DNA of 46,278 bases, from assembly GCA_950059285.1 (NCBI GenBank), contig CATLTV010000017.1, positions 1-46,278 on the forward strand, written 5' to 3'. The stretch's first letter is position 1. Each line of letters starts with the position of its first letter. This document shows positions 1-45,811 of this stretch, piece after piece. Both the position numbers and the translations under genes were made by a program. Under the pieces are notes generated by a model. That model had not been told where the DNA came from and made no database searches. It saw nothing but the letters and a program-made list of their open reading frames with translations. The DNA comes from an uncultured Pseudomonadota bacterium. GTDB lineage: Bacteria; Myxococcota_A; Bradymonadia; Bradymonadales; Bradymonadaceae.

Positions 1-42
1 CTGTTGCATCCGCAACAGGCCGCCCCTTGCCCCTTTGTCTGG

Positions 43-71
43 TTGCGACGACAGGCAAATCAAACTAGGAT
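43..71 (+). promoter_or_regulatory. Candidate sigma70-like promoter for the lipoprotein pair
   Basis: TTGCGA at 43-48 and TAGGAT at 66-71 are separated by 17 bases. Each matches 4 of 6 consensus positions. The pair lies 45 bases before the start of the first lipoprotein gene. A short hairpin at 1-18 (CTGTTGC/GCAACAG with a 4-base loop) precedes it and may be the tail of a terminator from outside the window. The promoter call rests on the match alone. Confidence 0.3.
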
Positions 72-13505: not shown

Positions 13506-14937
13506 CAGCTAACTCCTTGCGTCGTGAGCGCACAGCTGTCTTGGGATCCATGACCGACTTGACCTCAAACATACAGATGGTCGGAAGGACACGTGCGAAC
13601 AGCAGGAACAGTGTCATGAACATTCCAAATGAACCGATTGTAAGGATCCAGTCCATGGGCTTGAAGTCGTAGTTACCCCAGGAGCTAGGGAGGAAGTCCC
13701 TGTGCAAACTGGTGACAACAATCACGTAGCGCTCAAACCACATACCGAGGTTCACAAACAGGGTCATCACGAAGATGACGGGCAAGTTGCGGCGGATAGA
13801 CTTGAACCAGAAGAGCTGAGGTACGACCATGTTACATCCGTACATGATCAATGCACTCCACCAGTAAGGGCCAAACAGACGGTTGGAGAAGTGGAAACGC
13901 TCGCCAGGCACACCCGAGTAGTATGCAATGAAGAATTCAACAAGGTATGCACTACCCACGACCATGGAGGTCGCCAACACAATCTTGGCCATCGCCTCAA
14001 TGTGGTTCATGGTGACATAGTCTTCCAGGCTGAACACATGGCGCATGATGATGAGCAAGGTGAGCACCATCGCGAATCCAGAGAAGATAGCGCCGCCGAC
14101 GAAGTAGGGTGGGAAGATGGTTGTGTGCCAACCAGGAATCACACTCACAGCAAAGTCGAAGGACACGATGGTGTGCACGGAGAGCACCAGAGGAGTCGCA
14201 AGGCCAGCAAGCAACATGTAAGCTGCTTCGTAGTGACGCCATGCTCTGGAGGATCCTGTCCAACCAAGGCTCAGGATGCCGTACACTGTGCGTCTCAAGG
14301 AGTGACGCGCACGGTCACGCACAGAGGCGATATCGGGAACAAGGCCCACATACCAGAACACGATGGAAATCGTGGCATAGGTCGACACAGCAAACACATC
14401 CCACAGCAGTGGGGAGTTGAAGTTGACCCACAGCGGACCCCTTCCATTTGGAAGTGGCACAAGCCAGTAAGCAAACCAGGGACGACCTGTGTGAAGCAAT
14501 GGGAAAAGACCCGCTGTCATCACGGCAAAGATTGTCATCGCCTCGGCAGAGCGGTTCACCGCCGTACGCCAGTTTTGCCTGAAGAGGAAAAGGATCGCGG
14601 AAATCAGAGTTCCCGCGTGACCAATACCAATCCAGAAGACGAAGTTAATAATGTAGACACCCCAACCCACAGGGTTGTTGATACCTACCAGACCTTGTCC
14701 AACGGTGATCTCAAGGCCGAGGCCTGTGAGGAACATCAACATCAAAAGGACGGATGGAATAAAGGCAAATACCCAAAGTTTAGTGGGCATCCTCTCTGTG
14801 TGGATGGCAATATCATCGTTGACATCCGAGTAGGACTTCCCGCCTGTAACCAAGGGCTCACGCACTGCGCGATCCCCTCCAAGTGGACCTTTACCGGTTA
14901 GTATTCCAGGATGTCCTGTCAACTCGCTACGCTTCAT
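13498..14937 (-). CDS. actC: Alternative complex III quinol-binding membrane subunit ActC (NrfD/PsrC family)
   Basis: About 479 residues with ten predicted helices. The NrfD-family blocks are clear: [52 protein letters not shown] and [11 protein letters not shown]. The histidine of GIGHAGT and the Asp of DVFAV match residues linked to quinone and proton chemistry in this family. I prefer ATG 14937 ([11 protein letters not shown]); the reading frame runs to a TTG at 14982. An 8-bp dyad (AGTGATCA/TGATCACT, 14982-14999) precedes the gene. The stop overlaps actD by 8 bases. Confidence 0.94.
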
Positions 14938-29734: not shown

Positions 29735-30886
29735 ATGGATCGACGACTTATAGAGCACTTTGTGAATGCCAACTTGCTCTCCCGTCAAGATATGCAGCGA
29801 GTGATTTTGCGTGCGTCCAAGGCCAAGACTGGTTTGGTCTCCCAAATTCTGGACATGGGTGTGATTGATGAGGACTCCTTAGCCAAGCATATCGCATCGT
29901 TCTATCACTATGAACCACTCGATAATTCGTCGTTCTTTATGGATGACTCTGTATTGGGAATGTTAGATCAAGAGACGGCAACTCAACAAGGTGCGCTGCC
30001 CTTTGGTTATGAACCAGGAAGTGCACGTGTTTATGTCGCGGTGTACGAACCAGACCGTTGTAAAGAAGCCCTCGCCAAGGTCGAAGCAACATCAGGACAG
30101 GCTCCTGTTGTGCGCATCGCGACCAAGAGCTGGTTAGACAAGGCAATTCCTTTTTATTATGGCTCGGACAGAGGTGGTGCACAGCTTCCTTCTGGTGCCA
30201 GTCAAAACAACAGTCGTGTGCAAAACTCTTGGACACAAAGACCCCGCAGCTCGGGGCGAATTCCTCCGATTGCATCACAGTCCCCCAACAGAGAAGGTGA
30301 CTTTGGCTCAGATATGCCCATGGTCAGTGGCATGCACCGTATTTCATCTCGTGTGTCACAATCTCCTCGCACCGCTACTCCCCGTACAACTCCTCGCCCA
30401 ATACAGTCTCGTTCCATGACGGAACCTAACGATGACTTCGACGAGTTTGAAGCGTTACTTCGCGATGAAGGTCCAGACCTGTCTCCGCGCGCCAGCGTGA
30501 TTGGTCGTCCCCGCATCTCTCGTCGTAATGATGAATCAAGCTTTGGTGACTTCTCAGGTCAGAACTCAATGTGGGATCAGGTCAGCCGACATCCTGCGTT
30601 GAACTCACCGCCACCATCTTCAGGGTGGAATCATCAGGAGCCCCAACCTCATGCAGAACCATCAGGTTCCTTTTCTCTGTTTGATGAACCTTCCGAGGTT
30701 CAGAGTAGAAATGAGCTGACACTCCAAGATGTAGTGGAGAAGCAACATCAGCAGATCAACAAGCTGAAGTCCGAGGCGCAACGGCAGCGCGAAGTCATTC
30801 AGGCTCTCGCAGATCTTCTGATCGAGGCCCGCGTGATTTCACGACGTGACCTCACGCGAAAGCTTCAGTCCTTGCGCAGTAAGTAG
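29735..30886 (+). CDS. GspE/MshE N-terminal domain protein with disordered middle and coiled-coil end
   Basis: A 383-residue protein. Residues 1-150 resemble the N-terminal domain of type II secretion/type IV pilus ATPases (MshEN/GspE_N type): NANLLSRQDMQRVILRASK, MGVIDEDSLAKHIASFY and PFGYEPGSARVYVAV. No Walker motifs follow. The middle (150-310) is rich in Ser, Pro, Arg and Gln and is probably disordered. The C-terminus (about 325-380) is a charged helix likely to form a coiled coil. Stand-alone domains of this kind may bind cyclic di-GMP or partner proteins; that is inference. A 30-bp hairpin terminator follows its stop. Confidence 0.75.
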   Translation: MDRRLIEHFVNANLLSRQDMQRVILRASKAKTGLVSQILDMGVIDEDSLAKHIASFYHYEPLDNSSFFMDDSVLGMLDQETATQQGALPFGYEPGSARVYVAVYEPDRCKEALAKVEATSGQAPVVRIATKSWLDKAIPFYYGSDRGGAQLPSGASQNNSRVQNSWTQRPRSSGRIPPIASQSPNREGDFGSDMPMVSGMHRISSRVSQSPRTATPRTTPRPIQSRSMTEPNDDFDEFEALLRDEGPDLSPRASVIGRPRISRRNDESSFGDFSGQNSMWDQVSRHPALNSPPPSSGWNHQEPQPHAEPSGSFSLFDEPSEVQSRNELTLQDVVEKQHQQINKLKSEAQRQREVIQALADLLIEARVISRRDLTRKLQSLRSK

Positions 30887-30912: not shown

Positions 30913-30974
30913 AGAGCAAAACAAATTAGGCGACCCTTTGCCCAGGCAAAGGGTCGCCTAATTTGTTTTGCTCT
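30913..30974. terminator. Bidirectional terminator with 30-bp perfect arms and a 2-base loop
   Basis: Positions 30913-30942 are the exact reverse complement of 30945-30974, with only CA between. The outer part is AT-rich (CAAAACAAATT) and gives U-rich ends on both strands; the inner part is GC-rich (GGCGACCC). It lies 26 bases after the stop of the plus gene. It also contains the last codons and stop of the minus gene (stop at 30958-30960), so both converging transcripts can use it. Confidence 0.88.
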
Positions 30975-32319
30975 CCTTGTTGCTGACGCCGAGTCTGAAT
31001 GTAATACCCCAGATGCCGCTGTTGAGCGTGGGTAGCATGGTGTAAGCACTCCCAATTTCAAGGATGAGAGGTTCAAAGTTGTAACCTGCTCTCAGTGAGA
31101 GGCTGCCACCATGTAAGGTGCGATCCAGACCCGTTTGCTTGAACAGCGCGTCTCCACCAATTCCCATCCTCGCATAATCCACCGAGAACTTGCCATAGAT
31201 TGCACGCCAGAGCTGTTGGCGAACTCTCAACCCCACACGGAGCGGATAGTTTTGATGAAGCTTATTAAGTGGTGTGGTGTTTTCTGAATCCTGCCTTGCC
31301 ACAAATGAGGACGCCCCCAGTGTGATTCCCATGCCCAGCGATGGCGTGTACGGGTTGGCAAACCATCGCGATGGTTTGAGCCTCTCAAAGTAAAGCTCTT
31401 GCTCTAACTCAAAGCCCAGCCCTGGTTGGAGGGTTTGATTTGACTCGCCTGTCCATCTCCTGTGGCCTGCGCCAAAGGTAAACTCGGCGACCACGGATTG
31501 TTGTGCGAGAGCAAGAGAGGGGGCGGCAAAAAGGAGAAGGCACGATGTCAGTATAATCCCGAGCACCTTTTTGCCGCCCCCTCTCTTGCGGGTTTTGCAC
31601 AAGAGCGCGGTGATGAGCACGAGCAGCATCAAGAATGGTGCGCTGGGTTTTGACGGTGTTGTGGTGCAGGAAGATTGTTGTGGTGGAGTGCAGCGACCAA
31701 GCTCACAGGTCTGTGTCTCTGCACATGAACCATCACCTTCAACGCATTCAAGACATTTGCCTCGGGCAGTGTCGCATTGCCAACCCGAGAGGCAGTCTTC
31801 CTTGCTACTGCACTCCAGAGGATCAAGTAGCAGGATGTAGTCAGCATCAAGAAGACATGGTGACTCATCTGTGGCGCACTCCAGTGATATCCAGATGCGA
31901 GCATCACGACCAAGTTCATCAGCAGTGAGACGATCAAGTGTGTTCTCTCCTGATTGCAGCGAGATGGTGTGCTGAACATAGAGGTCTGCGCTTTGAAGTG
32001 TTTCTTCCTGTTCCTCATCCCATGACAGCGGTAGTGCGGTGGGTTCAAGCTCACCCTGGATCTCTTCAAAGATCGCCGCTGGACCTGCGCGTACAATCAC
32101 CTGTTGTGTGGTGGTTGATACGTTGGTCAGGCTGTAGTCAATCGCATTTCTGCCCTGCGTGCTACCACGCTCAAGAATATCAAAGGATGAACAGGTCATG
32201 CTCTGTGCTTGTGAATCATCACGCACGCAGAGCTCTCCTTGATAGACGGGATCAGAGACAGGTTGGCAACCTGTGAGCAGCAACACCAGGAAGAGAAGAG
32301 TACATGCTCTTGTGTTCAT
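30958..32319 (-). CDS. Composite lipoprotein: Cys-rich domain, membrane anchor, second signal-like segment, beta-barrel
   Basis: About 453 residues from ATG 32319. The N-terminus is a lipoprotein signal with lipobox LTGC. A globular part follows, then a cysteine-rich stretch (CSSKEDCLSGWQCD..., CTPPQQSSC), then a helix plus basic tail (FLMLLVLITALLCKTRKR) that looks like a C-terminal sorting anchor of myxobacterial type. In the same frame comes VLGIILTSCLLLFAAPSLALAQQ-like sequence, a normal signal peptide ending ALA-QQ. About 170 residues of outer-membrane beta-barrel-like sequence follow. It reads as two secreted proteins joined in frame. A GTG at the second signal could be a separate start (GAGGGGG upstream). 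A 24-bp inverted repeat (31511-31589) spans the joint. It is the last gene of the operon. Confidence 0.7.
   Translation of the reverse strand: MNTRACTLLFLVLLLTGCQPVSDPVYQGELCVRDDSQAQSMTCSSFDILERGSTQGRNAIDYSLTNVSTTTQQVIVRAGPAAIFEEIQGELEPTALPLSWDEEQEETLQSADLYVQHTISLQSGENTLDRLTADELGRDARIWISLECATDESPCLLDADYILLLDPLECSSKEDCLSGWQCDTARGKCLECVEGDGSCAETQTCELGRCTPPQQSSCTTTPSKPSAPFLMLLVLITALLCKTRKRGGGKKVLGIILTSCLLLFAAPSLALAQQSVVAEFTFGAGHRRWTGESNQTLQPGLGFELEQELYFERLKPSRWFANPYTPSLGMGITLGASSFVARQDSENTTPLNKLHQNYPLRVGLRVRQQLWRAIYGKFSVDYARMGIGGDALFKQTGLDRTLHGGSLSLRAGYNFEPLILEIGSAYTMLPTLNSGIWGITFRLGVSNKESKTN
31511..31589 (-). repeat. 24-bp perfect inverted repeat inside a coding sequence
   Basis: 31511-31534 is the exact reverse complement of 31566-31589, with 31 bases between. 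Each arm contains GAGAGGGGGCGGCAAAAAGG or its complement. It spans the joint between the first anchor-like tail and the second signal peptide of the composite lipoprotein ORF. Confidence 0.9.
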
Positions 32320-32359
32320 GTGTTGGGCGATGGGAGGTGCAGGTGTCATGGCAAGTCAA

Positions 32360-37374: not shown

Positions 37375-37396
37375 AAAGATTTGGCCCAAAATCTTT
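37375..37396 (-). terminator. Weak hairpin at the end of folP
   Basis: AAAGATTT (37375-37382) pairs with AAATCTTT (37389-37396) around GGCCCA, overlapping the folP stop codon by two bases. It is small and AT-rich, and may be a weak terminator or chance. Confidence 0.3.
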
Positions 37397-38264
37397 ATGG
37401 CAAATGCGACGCCTGTTCTGGATGTGTAAGCATCCGCGCCACGTGAGCAACATCTCGCATCTGCGCGACATCGTGAACGCGCAAAATGTGTGCACCGTTC
37501 ATGACGCCAATCGCCACGCTCGCCGCTGTACCCCAGGCGCGTTCATCTGTGGGCTTGCCCAGAATATGGCCGATGAATGACTTGCGTGAGGTGCCAAGTA
37601 AGAGCATTAGACCAAATATGCTGAACTCATCAAGTCTTTGAATAAGCTCACAGTTTTGAGTCGTGCTTTTCCCAAATCCAATGCCAGGATCAAGTATGAT
37701 GTGTTCGTGTCGCACGCCATGTGCCACGGCATAATCGATACGCTCCCTGAAGTAGTCAAGCTGTTCACCCATTAAATCACTGTAATGTGTGTCCTGTTGC
37801 ATTGTCTTTGGTGTACCGCGCATATGCATGAGTACAATGGGAGCACTGGTGTCTGCTGCGCAGTGCACCATGTCCGCATCCTTGAGCATGGCGCTGACAT
37901 CATTAATGATGTCAGCGCCATGCTCAAGTGACTGTCTTGCAACTTCTGCCTTGGTTGTATCAATCGAGATGAGCGTGTCTGGACGCGCGTCGAGAATGCC
38001 GTCAATGACAGGTAACACACGCGCAAGTTCATCCTTGAGGCTAACTGGTTCTGCACCAGGGCGAGTGGACTCGCCGCCGATATCAAGAATGTCAGCGCCT
38101 TCATCAAGGAGCGTCAGGGCATGTGCAATCGCTCGCTGAGGATCGAGGTAGTTACCTCCATCCGAGAATGAGTCTGGTGTTACATTGACAATGCCCATGA
38201 TGTATGGCGCATCCTGGGCATTGAGGCTTCTCTGCTTTGCAGGGAAATTAAGGTTTTGAATCAT
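37395..38264 (-). CDS. folP: Dihydropteroate synthase
   Basis: A 289-residue TIM-barrel enzyme that joins pterin pyrophosphate to p-aminobenzoate in folate synthesis. The pterin/phosphate motifs are complete: MGIVNVTPDSFSDGG, DIGGESTRPGAEPV, ISIDTTKAEVA, GADIINDVSAM, MHMRGTPKTMQ, DPGIGFGKST and the end HDVAQMRDV. The central GADIINDVSA block is encoded inside a perfect 48-bp palindrome (37881-37928). The start is ATG 38264, 21 bases after the ftsH stop. Confidence 0.97.
   Translation of the reverse strand: MIQNLNFPAKQRSLNAQDAPYIMGIVNVTPDSFSDGGNYLDPQRAIAHALTLLDEGADILDIGGESTRPGAEPVSLKDELARVLPVIDGILDARPDTLISIDTTKAEVARQSLEHGADIINDVSAMLKDADMVHCAADTSAPIVLMHMRGTPKTMQQDTHYSDLMGEQLDYFRERIDYAVAHGVRHEHIILDPGIGFGKSTTQNCELIQRLDEFSIFGLMLLLGTSRKSFIGHILGKPTDERAWGTAASVAIGVMNGAHILRVHDVAQMRDVAHVARMLTHPEQASHLP
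37881..37928 (-). repeat. 48-bp perfect palindrome in the folP coding sequence
   Basis: 37881-37904 is the exact reverse complement of 37905-37928, with no spacer; the centre is ATTAAT. The arms read CTTGAGCATGGCGCTGACAT+CATT. The coding strand translates as LEHGADII followed by NDVSAMLK, the conserved pterin-binding block of dihydropteroate synthase, so both arms are coding and in frame. Confidence 0.95.
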
Positions 38265-40495: not shown

Positions 40496-42034
40496 TCAGA
40501 GTTCCGATGTGGGGACTTTCCGTGTGGATGGACTCCAGATGGAGTCAAACACAAGTTCTATCCACAAGTTCGACGTTGGCAACCTTTGGCTGCTTACATG
40601 AATGTGCTCAATCCCCGCGCTGGCTATGATGTGTTCCTCGTCATGACCGTCCTTTCTCTTCACAATGCATGGCCACAGATGTCTTCTCCAGGGAGGGATC
40701 TGGTGTGCCCGTAGCAGTTCTTTGAGTCGTTTTGAGTGAGGCTTCTCTTGTCCAGGGTAGCATGTGCGAACCTGATCGCCAGGTCTGGCTCCTCTTATAT
40801 AAAGTGATGCATCCTGATGTGTATCGACACATATATAATACGTGTGCGCATCGGGATGTGTACTTTTTAACTCCGACTCACTGATGCGCCTCCAGTGGAT
40901 CATGTGAGTGAACCAGTGCATGTGTAATGTCTCTCCTGCCTGTGGTAGCGCAAGCTCGACCTCTTCTGGGCTCTCGTCGAACCAGCCACGCGCTCCCCGT
41001 ATTGGGGTAGGCAGTACAACAATCCTTTCATGCTCAAACTCAACGCGACACCCAGGTAGAACCTGTGTGGTGAATGTGGCGTGCTCATCTTCAAGCGCTA
41101 GCTCCAGTGCTTCAAGTTGCATGAGTGATGGTGACTTGCTGTGTGGGGCAGTGCGCGCGTGAGTATGAAGAAATGTTTTTCTTATCAGATAGTTGTGGTT
41201 TTCTTTCAGTGAGGTCTTACACAAACTGACTGCACCCTGGATGGGGGTGTCTATCATGGCCACCTTGTGCCATAGCTTCTGCTGTATATCGTGCAGAAAT
41301 GTGGCCTCCTGGCGCAAGATGTCGAGTGTGCGTTGCCATCCACGAGCGCCATTGCCATGTATCTGCTTGAGATCGGGGATGACGTGATGTCGTATCGTGT
41401 TGCGCGTGTATTTATCTGTGGCGTTGGTGGGATCTTCTATCCATGTGATGTGATGTGCTTGGGCAAACGCTTCGATTTCAGCGCGCTCATGTTCAATCAA
41501 AGGTCGATGAAGTTTGCGCGTCTGAGGCCAATCATCAGGGGTGTAGGGTGGTGTGACCTGGTGATTGTAGAGCGAAGAGAGCCCATGTGCGCCTGAACCT
41601 CTTGCCGCATGCATGAGCATGGTTTCAAGGGCGTCATCAAGGTGGTGTCCTGTGAGTATGGCGTCCACGTGATGATGCGCTGCGATTGCACAGAGTTTTT
41701 TGTAGCGTGCTTCTCTGGCTGACTCCTGGTTCTTGTGTGGCAGGTCTTCAAGGTGGAGTGTGTAGTGGGCCTTGATGAGCGCGGATGAGGACGCGAGCTT
41801 TTTGCAAAAGCTCGCGTCCTCATCCGCGCTCGCCCTCATATGATGGTGCACATGTGCTGTGATGATGTGAAGGTGTGGGTTGTGTGAGGCGAGTGTGGTG
41901 CACAGGTGCAGAACCACAGACGAGTCACACCCTCCGCTTAATGCGACAAGCCACGTGACCTGACGCTCTGGTTCGGAGGTTGTGCTTTCAAGCAGATGTG
42001 CAAGATAGTGTGTGGCCTTGTGAAGATCGCTCAT
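40496..42034 (-). CDS. tilS: tRNA(Ile)-lysidine synthase
   Basis: A 512-residue enzyme that changes C34 of the CAU anticodon of tRNA-Ile to lysidine. The PP-loop ATP motif is VALSGGCDSSVVLHL; HVHHHMRASADEDASFC and LTGHHLDDALETMLMHAARGSG are typical for the family. The C-terminal substrate-binding domains follow, with KRLKELLRAHQIPPWRR. Its start overlaps the upstream stop as ATGA (42031-42034). The segment coding for SADEDASFCKKLASSSAL lies in an inverted repeat with 26-bp perfect arms. Confidence 0.95.
   Translation of the reverse strand: MSDLHKATHYLAHLLESTTSEPERQVTWLVALSGGCDSSVVLHLCTTLASHNPHLHIITAHVHHHMRASADEDASFCKKLASSSALIKAHYTLHLEDLPHKNQESAREARYKKLCAIAAHHHVDAILTGHHLDDALETMLMHAARGSGAHGLSSLYNHQVTPPYTPDDWPQTRKLHRPLIEHERAEIEAFAQAHHITWIEDPTNATDKYTRNTIRHHVIPDLKQIHGNGARGWQRTLDILRQEATFLHDIQQKLWHKVAMIDTPIQGAVSLCKTSLKENHNYLIRKTFLHTHARTAPHSKSPSLMQLEALELALEDEHATFTTQVLPGCRVEFEHERIVVLPTPIRGARGWFDESPEEVELALPQAGETLHMHWFTHMIHWRRISESELKSTHPDAHTYYICVDTHQDASLYIRGARPGDQVRTCYPGQEKPHSKRLKELLRAHQIPPWRRHLWPCIVKRKDGHDEEHIIASAGIEHIHVSSQRLPTSNLWIELVFDSIWSPSTRKVPTSEL
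41777..41831 (-). repeat. 26-bp perfect inverted repeat with 3-base loop in the tilS coding sequence
   Basis: 41777-41802 is the exact reverse complement of 41806-41831; the loop is TGC. The GC-rich arms would form a very stable hairpin in DNA and in mRNA. The coding strand gives ASADEDASF in one arm and KLASSSAL in the other. There is no gene boundary here: the ORF continues on both sides with normal TilS sequence. Confidence 0.95.
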
Positions 42035-43067: not shown

Positions 43068-43121
43068 CCATCAACACACAGGGGCTGAACCTTTTGAGGT
43101 TCAGCCCCTGTGTGTTGATGG
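43068..43121. repeat. 25-bp perfect inverted repeat with 4-base loop, not next to a gene end
   Basis: 43068-43092 is the exact reverse complement of 43097-43121; the loop is TTTG. The core is CAGGGGCTGAACC. It lies 105 bases upstream of the minus-strand gene start and about 500 bases upstream of the plus-strand gene, so neither neighbour ends here. No T-run follows on either strand. Confidence 0.9.
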
Positions 43122-43412: not shown

Positions 43413-43617
43413 GCGTTGTCCAATTGATGATTTGACAAAAAATTCACACATCAAGACGACTTCAAGAGAATAGTAAATGCTCTTCCACAAGGAACACCTC
43501 GTCGATACAAGTAGTCACCATAAATTAAGGTAGTTCCACGTATTTCATCACCTCATTGTGAGCTTTTTATTCATAATCAGGGTCAATACGAAAAGGGAAG
43601 TTAAAGGGAGCAAAAAC

Positions 43618-44994
43618 GTGAGTATAAATCAAAGTTTACGAATAGCGCTGGTATGGAACGGCACTGTAGTTCAAGAGCGCACCTTCACCGCCATGAGTGA
43701 TCCTATCGTCACGCTTGGTGAAAAAGAAACAAATATGTTTATTGCTCCGGCACCTGGTTTGCCCGAGTCCTTCAACATGTTTGAGCGCCTTAAAGATGGC
43801 ACCTACGTCGTCCGCTACACCGATAAAGTCAATGGTAGCATGGAGATTCGCGATGAGGACTTCGAGCTTGATGAGCTTGAAGGTAAAGCCTCCAAGGTTG
43901 ACTCTGCTTCTACAGAAAAAGGTTCTGCGAACGTCTATCAGGTTGAGCTTGCAAGCGGCGACTGGGGTATCATTCACCTCAGCGACACAAACCAGGTCTT
44001 CTTCCAACTCTTTGACAACGTCCCCGTGGCTCCTCGTCGTAGCCTGCTTGCTGCCGTCACAGGTCTGTCCGCAGTGCTCGCTGGATTCATCGCCCTCAGC
44101 GGTGTTGCACACGGTGCGTTCCTCCTTGCTGCATTCCTCTCCTATGATCCCCAGGCCGAGCTTAACCCTCTGCTTGCTGAGGACCGCTTCGTGGAATTCC
44201 TTGTGGATGATCTCAACGATCCTCTCGAGGAAGAAGAAGAGATGGACGAGCCCGAAGAAGACACCACAGGTAAGAAAGCTGGTGGTGAAGAAGGTAAGTT
44301 CGGCGCAGAAGACTCCGAAATTCCTGAGTCCAAAATTCCCAAGGTCGACGGTGAGATGGTCGACGAGGTTGATGTCAAGCAGCTTGGTGTGAACAAGGCT
44401 CTTGGTTCAAAACTCCTCGGCGCTGGTCCTCTCAAGAGCATCTTCGGTAACCAGGAAGGCTTCGACGCCAAAATAAACATCGGCATGAGCGGTGAAGGCG
44501 GAGAACTTGTCGTGGGTCGTGGTGCTGGCGGTATGGGTATGCGCGGTACTGGTAGCGGCGGTGGCGGCGAAGGCTTCGGTCGTGTCGGTGGCCTCGGTAA
44601 AGTCGACACTGGTGGCGGTAAAGGTGCCAGCGGTAAGATCGGCAAAGGTAAGAAGAAGAAGGTCAAGGTCAAGATGGCCAAAGGCGCTCCTAAAATCGGT
44701 GACTTCTGCGACAAGAACAACATCCGTCGCGTCGTCGGTGCAAAGAGCAACGCCATCAAGTACTGCTTCGAGAAAGAACTTCAGGCTAACCCCAAGCTCT
44801 CTGGTAAGATTATCGCTCAGTGGAAAGTCGGCCTCGATGGTTCTGTGATGGACTCCTCCGTCGCTTCCTCCACCATGGGTAACTCCAAGGTCGAAGGCTG
44901 CATCACCCGCGTGGTCAAGCGTATGCGCTTCCAGCCACCAAACGGCGGTATCTGCATCATTAACTACCCATTCATCTTCAGTGGTCTTGAGTAA
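43618..44994 (+). CDS. AgmX/PglI C-terminal domain protein, TonB-like periplasm-spanning
   Basis: 458 residues from GTG 43618. An N-terminal domain of about 130 residues looks like a small beta-rich signalling fold (GTVVQERTF, PIVTLGEKETN). One or two membrane segments follow (LLAAVTGLSAVLAGFIALSG). A long linker comes next: acidic first, then Gly-rich (GGMGMRGTGSGGGGEGFG), then Lys-rich (GKGKKKKVKVKM). The last ~95 residues match the AgmX/PglI domain: IKYCFEKEL, LSGKIIAQWKVGLDGSV, VEGCITRVVKRMRFQPP. Such proteins occur in myxobacterial motility or TonB-like energy transfer. AAGGGAG precedes the GTG by seven bases. A 25-bp terminator follows. Confidence 0.85.
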   Translation: MSINQSLRIALVWNGTVVQERTFTAMSDPIVTLGEKETNMFIAPAPGLPESFNMFERLKDGTYVVRYTDKVNGSMEIRDEDFELDELEGKASKVDSASTEKGSANVYQVELASGDWGIIHLSDTNQVFFQLFDNVPVAPRRSLLAAVTGLSAVLAGFIALSGVAHGAFLLAAFLSYDPQAELNPLLAEDRFVEFLVDDLNDPLEEEEEMDEPEEDTTGKKAGGEEGKFGAEDSEIPESKIPKVDGEMVDEVDVKQLGVNKALGSKLLGAGPLKSIFGNQEGFDAKINIGMSGEGGELVVGRGAGGMGMRGTGSGGGGEGFGRVGGLGKVDTGGGKGASGKIGKGKKKKVKVKMAKGAPKIGDFCDKNNIRRVVGAKSNAIKYCFEKELQANPKLSGKIIAQWKVGLDGSVMDSSVASSTMGNSKVEGCITRVVKRMRFQPPNGGICIINYPFIFSGLE

Positions 44995-45011: not shown

Positions 45012-45061
45012 GAAAAAGAGAAGGGGCGCGCTGGCTAGCCAGCGCGCCCCTTCTCTTTTTC
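45012..45061 (+). terminator. Terminator with 25-bp perfect arms and no spacer
   Basis: 45012-45036 is the exact reverse complement of 45037-45061. The GC core (GGGGCGCGCTGGCTAGCCAGC) is flanked by A5 on the left and T5 on the right, so it works in both directions. It lies 17 bases after the stop of the AgmX/PglI-type gene. Confidence 0.92.
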
Positions 45062-45067
45062 TGCTGC

Positions 45068-45113
45068 AAAGAAGGATGCGGCCATTGCCAAAGCAATGGC
45101 CGCATCCTTCTTT
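45068..45113 (-). terminator. Second terminator, 21-bp perfect arms, for the GNAT gene
   Basis: 45068-45088 is the exact reverse complement of 45093-45113; the loop is CAAA. The core is GATGCGGCCATTGC, and the ends are AAAGAAG/CTTCTTT. It lies eight bases after the stop of the minus-strand gene and only six bases from the neighbouring terminator, which has a different sequence. Each converging gene thus has its own hairpin. Confidence 0.9.
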
Positions 45114-45121
45114 CTTGCTAA

Positions 45122-45811
45122 CTAAAACTCAAAGACAACCTTGTCATTATCTTCAGGACCTTTTGTGGGTTCGTTTCTAGTGCGTTGAACTTGCTTTGTT
45201 TTTTGTGGTGTGTGCTGTGCTTTGCTAGCTGTAGGGTACGGTGTCAGCGCGGCCTGAGAGAGCGTCTTTGCCAGGATTAATTTGTGCTCTCCTGGTCTGA
45301 AGTAATCACGCAACCTCGCCTCTTCAATAAAGCCGCACTTGTTGTAAAACCCCACCGCGCCCTGATACTTCTCAAGGCTTGATGTCGAGAGGTACAGTTT
45401 CCTTGCGCGCATAAAAAGCAACCTCTCCTCCACGTGGCGCATTAACACCTTGCCATATCCTCGCCCGCGAAAAAATGGGTTCACATACGTCCACCCCAGC
45501 CAGTAAATACCTTGCGCTTCATCGTCATCAATAAAGTACCCCGAGACTGCCACCACGCGCTGTTCCTGTGGATCTTCAAGGACAAAGTGCTGGGTCACAT
45601 CCTCGGGCATTGAGAATCGCTCTGGAGCAAAGGCATGTCGGGCGCTCTGATAATCGTCGGAGTCATGGAGCCTGATAATGCGTAAGACCTCGTCGAGATC
45701 AGACCGTCTCATGGGTCGAACATGGGGGAGATCTGATGACGATGAGTTTTGAGGATCAAGGAGCTGCTTTGCTGCATCCTGAATCTTGCGTCCAAATTGA
45801 TCAAAGTCCAT
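45122..45811 (-). CDS. GNAT family N-acetyltransferase
   Basis: A 229-residue protein. Residues about 30-180 form a GNAT domain: RPMRRSDLDEVLRII, the acetyl-CoA loop VNPFFRGRGYGKVLMRHVEE (R-G-x-G-x-G type) and LYLSTSSLEKYQGAVGFYNKCGFIEEARLRDYF. An N-terminal amphipathic helix (FGRKIQDAAKQLL) and a basic, polar C-terminal tail of about 45 residues are extra. The acceptor substrate is unknown. AGGAAC precedes ATG 45811. It is divergent from grxC. Confidence 0.92.
   Translation of the reverse strand: MDFDQFGRKIQDAAKQLLDPQNSSSSDLPHVRPMRRSDLDEVLRIIRLHDSDDYQSARHAFAPERFSMPEDVTQHFVLEDPQEQRVVAVSGYFIDDDEAQGIYWLGWTYVNPFFRGRGYGKVLMRHVEERLLFMRARKLYLSTSSLEKYQGAVGFYNKCGFIEEARLRDYFRPGEHKLILAKTLSQAALTPYPTASKAQHTPQKTKQVQRTRNEPTKGPEDNDKVVFEF

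Follow-up and report, generated by a model that had tools for sequence, protein, structure and literature searches.

What is a long perfect inverted repeat doing inside the coding sequence of a conserved enzyme, and how did it get there? The question is raised by tilS (40496..42034, minus strand), an essential tRNA-modification gene of an uncultured bacterium, which encodes a tRNA(Ile)-lysidine synthetase of 512 aa and lies in the window, as we call the whole stretch of 46,278 nucleotides that was analysed. From the comparisons set out below, we infer that the tilS hairpin is probably the product of a fold-back template switch (quasipalindrome correction) and one case of a lineage-wide process.

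A perfect hairpin within an intact tilS gene

The two arms of the repeat (41777-41802 and 41806-41831) are 26 bp long, 100% complementary and separated by a 3-nt spacer, just as a preliminary description of the locus had it. For repeats with arms of at least 26 bp and loops of 0-8 nt, the chance expectation in the whole window is about 9e-11. The same description held that the ORF is open and TilS-like on both sides of the repeat. This is borne out: the 512-aa frame is intact and open throughout, scores above the cut-off for Pfam ATP_bind_3 and NCBIfam TilS_N and TilS_C, matches the solved TilS structures 1wy5, 1ni5 and 3a2k, and can be aligned with 29 homologues. Also confirmed is the coding assignment of the arms, one to an ADEDASF stretch and the other to KLASSSAL. 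Read along the minus strand, the gene-5' arm (41831-41806) codes for SADEDASF and the gene-3' arm (41802-41777) for KLASSSAL, and the loop between them (41803..41805; TGC on the plus strand, GCA on the gene strand) falls within the codons of Cys77 and Lys78.

As RNA, the hairpin has a fold energy of -59.5 kcal/mol (z = -10.5), and the preliminary description predicted that the stem would affect translation. The stem lies inside the ORF and is followed by ATCAAG, with no U-tract, so that it does not qualify as an intrinsic terminator. Nor did Rfam, at the gathering threshold, match any structured RNA in the window. There is no second copy of the hairpin in the genome. Most probably the hairpin is carried along in tilS as a passenger that the gene tolerates, presumably without a function at this site.

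Comparison of the tilS arms with homologues

Nearly all of the 29 homologues, drawn from within the family, the order and the class, are equal in length to our TilS across the arms, and the Aquifex protein (1wy5) aligns ungapped over both. Since the segment has the length seen in homologues, existing sequence was replaced where it stood and no insertion took place. The two arms differ in how well they fit the family: measured against the 29 homologues, the gene-5' arm scores 11.7 bits and the gene-3' arm 0.6 bits, where the mean for the TilS domain is 8.6 per 8 residues. The off-consensus residues of the gene-3' arm are S82, S83, S84 and A85, and over its columns our TilS ranks second worst of 30. 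The homologous DNA is not palindromic, with a mean of 7.7/26 pairs and a maximum of 16 (random, about 6.5). The pairing is missing in these family-level homologues; a search for close relatives with TilS peptides in GTDB genomes found none.

This asymmetry fits copying from the gene-5' arm, the probable template, onto the gene-3' arm, the probable copy. However, the residues just past the gene-3' arm (I, K, H and Y) are equally atypical. The poor fit is therefore not confined to the arm, and the asymmetry gives only moderate support to this direction of copying. The earlier suggestion that the second arm was copied from the first stands in part: the unchanged length, the difference in fit, the lack of pairing in homologues and a parallel in folP favour it, while the divergence downstream weakens it. 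The tilS deviations that complete the mirror are consistent with template switching, although less strongly so than those in folP.

An independent case in folP

The gene for dihydropteroate synthase, folP (289 aa; 37395..38264, minus strand), belongs to the same gene cluster as tilS and carries a coding palindrome of its own (37881..37928, minus strand), with perfect 24-bp arms and no spacer, coding for LEHGADIINDVSAMLK. Thirteen of its 16 residues are family-typical. The three exceptions are H115, L127 and K128, which are found in 0/109, 2/109 and 3/109 homologues, respectively. Their codons mirror those for M126, E114 and L113, and are required for the CAT/ATG, GAG/CTC and CTT/AAG pairing. 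The folP homologues already hold a partial palindrome (mean 10.1/24 pairs), and for this reason the folP case resembles classical quasipalindrome correction. The region is ungapped against close-family homologues, with no residues added. Judged from the sequence, folP is a cleaner case than tilS, and an independent one, of substitutions that complete pairing.

Perfect repeats elsewhere in the window

Besides that in tilS, five further perfect repeats occur in the window, their arms 21-30 bp long and their loops at most 4 nt, one of them being that in folP. The others are unstranded. One (30913..30974; arms 30 bp, loop 2) marks the end of ORF 30958-32349 (-) and follows ORF 29735-30886 (+), is terminator-like and has a family composition score of 9.2. 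Another (43068..43121; arms 25 bp, loop 4) lies between divergent genes. The palindrome at 45012..45061 (arms 25 bp, no spacer) comes just after ORF 43558-44994 (+) and is likewise terminator-like, with a score of 14.3, and that at 45068..45113 (arms 21 bp, loop 4) lies between the same ORF and the convergent ORF 45122-45811 (-).

We also noted a perfect 24-bp inverted repeat with a 31-nt spacer at 31511-31589, within ORF 30958-32349 (-), which contains the family core GGGGGCGGC. It may mark either an earlier gene end or a further coding hairpin. Scans restricted to spacers of at most 8 nt, as in the counts below, overlook repeats of this kind.

A genome-wide excess of perfect repeats

The preliminary description had treated the tilS repeat as a matter of a single gene, a view that does not survive a wider scan. 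A scan of 1.59 Mb of the 6.65-Mb draft yielded 242 perfect repeats, their arms 20-41 bp long and their spacers at most 8 nt, or 15 per 100 kb. This is about one perfect long hairpin per 7,000 bases, which extrapolates to about 1,000 per genome. The density in the first 846 kb was 15.8 per 100 kb, compared with 2 repeats in 752 kb from eight genomes of the same family. As a control, 80 stretches from diverse bacteria (856 kb in all) held 4 perfect repeats; these stretches were drawn from the folP scan, the matches listed there being from distant genomes. E. coli, too, is described as poor in repeats with arms of at least 13 bp and spacers of at most 8 nt (PMC6060812).

Arm lengths peak near 33-36 bp and none exceeds 41 bp, a ceiling that may be a limit of the assembly. 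Perfection is close to all-or-none: among 279 stems of at least 20 pairs, 232 show no mismatch, 31 a single one and 16 more than one, and only 0.85% of pairs are mismatched. Stems broken by indels are not in excess (5/284, against 4 in the control). An enrichment of G.U pairs was considered as a sign of selection at the RNA level and set aside: transitions make up 51/73 mismatches (G/T 31, A/C 20), for which ordinary transition bias suffices.

Placement, composition and shared cores

The repeats favour the ends of genes. With a simple gene caller applied to the first 846 kb, a repeat was found in 46/88 convergent, 66/380 tandem and 10/92 divergent gaps, at a median distance from the stop codon of 11.5 nt (convergent) or 27 nt (tandem). 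Across the 1.59 Mb there are 166 convergent gaps: 87 with an arm of at least 20 bp, 17 with one of 8-19 bp, and 62 with none. In the 5' arm, A predominates on the outside, G in the middle and T at the apex, which matches the expectation for bidirectional intrinsic terminators. By position and composition, the intergenic hairpins at gene ends are most likely terminators of this type. Like known intrinsic (Rho-independent) bidirectional terminators, they follow stop codons, are chiefly convergent and have an A-rich 5' arm and a T-rich 3' arm; in contrast to the usual examples, the stems are far longer and more perfect, and the tilS and folP copies are intragenic.

About ten repeats lie within genes, mostly in linkers or at gene ends, and only those in tilS and folP fall within conserved enzyme domains. 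These coding counts are approximate, since the simple gene caller took a downstream start in tilS and so missed that case. A further coding palindrome (locus L039) was tried as a test case and proved uninformative, being in a linker of variable length. The protein concerned belongs to an uncharacterised family and is ~22 residues longer than most homologues, the extra length (13964-14032) lying away from the palindrome.

A core, GGGGCGGCC, is common to 27 hairpins whose outer arms are unrelated, yet each is perfectly paired. Two particular pairs of hairpins are worth recording. Within 4 kb of one another in L114 (4524-4595 and 8571-8642) are two copies of a 72-bp hairpin with unrelated flanks, identical except for one pair that is changed on both sides; this suggests that copying of a hairpin as a whole can occur as well. 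Separately, the hairpins at L038 17743-17811 and L112 10904-10980 have a 37-bp core in common, with GCA as the loop of the first and TGC as that of the second (an inverted centre); their outer arms are unrelated and perfect in both.

A proposed template-switch model

Template switching is an established mechanism, known from reporters in E. coli (PMC7202029), from coding genes of yeast (PMC8604942) and as the source of stems in RNA genes (PMC8794818). At tilS, the nascent strand (or the polymerase) would fold back during DNA synthesis on a short stretch of complementarity close to codon 77. The gene-5' arm would then be copied as its reverse complement over the gene-3' arm before synthesis returned to the proper template. 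About 8 tilS codons would be replaced in a tolerant stretch, with the length unchanged. The features expected of such an event are seen here: a perfect repeat with a short spacer, a region of unaltered length and, in folP, deviations that exactly complete the pairing. The near all-or-none perfection of the stems, the unrelated yet perfectly paired outer arms of hairpins with one core, and the pair altered on both sides in the 72-bp hairpin likewise favour copying. In this lineage the process would be unusually active, or unusually weakly opposed, and would have converted most gene-end hairpin terminators to perfect palindromes of 20-41 bp. The stems would stay perfect because template switching erases mismatches.

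We are evenly divided on the broader proposition that inverted repeats are being perfected throughout this genome, by hyperactive fold-back template switching or by arm-to-arm conversion, to the extent that more than half of convergent gene ends are palindromic and that the process spills into conserved genes and rewrites protein. One point against template switching as the cause of the excess is that we saw no defect in repair genes by which hairpins and template switches are kept in check. The genes for SbcC and SbcD lie side by side, those for XseA (ExoVII) and MutS are present, and RecJ is visible in part, perhaps at the end of a contig. Loss of SbcCD, ExoVII, RecJ or MutS was accordingly rejected as a cause, all four being present, and a simple repair defect does not account for the excess.

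Alternative explanations

Much of the distribution is also what selection on RNA structure would produce, if the long perfect stems serve as terminators, the tilS hairpin controls how the mRNA of the tilS-folP operon is translated or degraded, and the stems are built by point mutation and compensation. The placement at gene 3' ends (convergent > tandem > divergent), the A-rich, G-rich and T-apex composition of the arms and the great stability of the tilS stem all agree with this, and strong selection for long terminators could alone keep the intergenic stems perfect. We nevertheless think it unlikely. The arms run to 41 bp, well past the needs of termination; stems that are imperfect or of intermediate length are rare; the tilS stem is without a U-tract; and relatives do without such hairpins. 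Furthermore, the folP and tilS palindromes alter family-typical residues and not silent sites, and selection for terminators cannot explain coding copies of that kind. A family of mobile palindromic elements, with hairpins spreading as units (REP-like or via hairpin ssDNA) and a copy replacing the native tilS sequence, seems to us less likely again. The REP tyrosine transposase (NF047646) is absent from this 95% complete genome (E. coli was among the positive controls), the composition of the flanks reveals no fixed motif or bases, TilS and FolP contain no insertion, and the tilS hairpin is single-copy. Shared cores such as that of the 27 hairpins, and the 72-bp hairpin at two places with unrelated flanks, do point to spreading units, but most hairpins share a core only, and their differing outer arms pair perfectly. 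The tilS arm fits the composition of the family, at the 39th percentile among intergenic hairpins and in the top 0.5% of random 24-mers. Because it resembles the intergenic hairpins, as the folP arm does not, there is room for its replacement by a copied family hairpin. Transposition of the REP type was itself rejected: both the transposase and a GTAG-type motif beside the palindromes are missing.

It is highly improbable that the repeats are an artefact of library or assembly, in which fold-back chimeras or read correction yield false perfect repeats. The draft is in 441 contigs, these often end in such hairpins, and one end carries Illumina adapter. However, breaks at hairpins are to be expected if the hairpins are real, and TilS and FolP continue in frame and in register beyond the repeat, whereas fold-back chimeras do not rejoin the downstream sequence. 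The hairpins also occupy specific biological sites, and are nearly absent from the family's other draft genomes.

Counted by eye, roughly 15 of 53 contig termini (contigs C1-C36 and C248) break off within a terminator-like hairpin, and the start of the window (1-45) is one of them. At one terminus (L184, contig C28), bases 1-22 are the Illumina adapter AGATCGGAAGAGCGTCGTGTAG, read outward, directly after the hairpin arm GGGGCGGCCATT; this is assembly contamination at a hairpin stop. Such ends suggest that sequencing halts at real hairpins and that our count of repeats is an underestimate.

Relation to known systems

Quasipalindrome correction, as known from the E. coli thyA and lacZ QP reporters, T4 rII and yeast CYC1, copies one arm from the other to give a perfect inverted repeat, through multi-base changes that are length-neutral or tract-like, as here (PMC7202029, PMC8604942). 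It usually makes short fixes to near-palindromes, whereas here whole arms of 24-26 bp are affected in conserved genes, and the repeats number about a thousand by extrapolation. The coding palindromes of Nematomorpha mitochondria (PMC6649704) share with ours perfect repeats within genes, a binary pattern of perfect or absent, and no known function, and it was from the binary pattern that repeat conversion was proposed there. The present repeats differ in being on a bacterial chromosome, in having shorter arms (at most 41 bp) and in lying mostly at gene ends.

The REP/BIME palindromes, with TnpA-REP, are likewise numerous, dispersed and extragenic with a partly common core; here, in contrast, there is no TnpA-REP gene and no fixed flank motif, and the arms are mostly unique. 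Rickettsia palindromic elements, like the tilS and folP repeats, are palindromes inside ORFs. Those elements are in-frame insertions, whereas TilS and FolP have no added residues. They also lose arm identity over time (PMC6649704), while here it is perfect.

If inverted repeats are indeed perfected throughout this genome, it would parallel, on the chromosome of a bacterium that still has SbcCD, the palindromes of Nematomorpha mitochondria. Reporters and comparative genomics have revealed template switching, but how much it contributes to real genomes is difficult to measure. Roughly a thousand long perfect palindromes in one genome (extrapolated), nearly absent from its family, would allow arm-to-arm correction to be measured against point mutation, and would let one study what ordinarily keeps palindromes from growing, given that SbcCD is present here. 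It would also show how fold-back copying alters conserved enzymes, with the warning that where an essential enzyme of such a genome departs from its family, the residues concerned may be scars of mutation rather than adaptations.

Among the relatives, one genome (G013, genus g13, with congeners G016 and G018) is the only one in which long perfect repeats occur (L070-L074; 2 in 100 kb). It has a hairpin in 7/12 convergent gaps, and may show an intermediate state.
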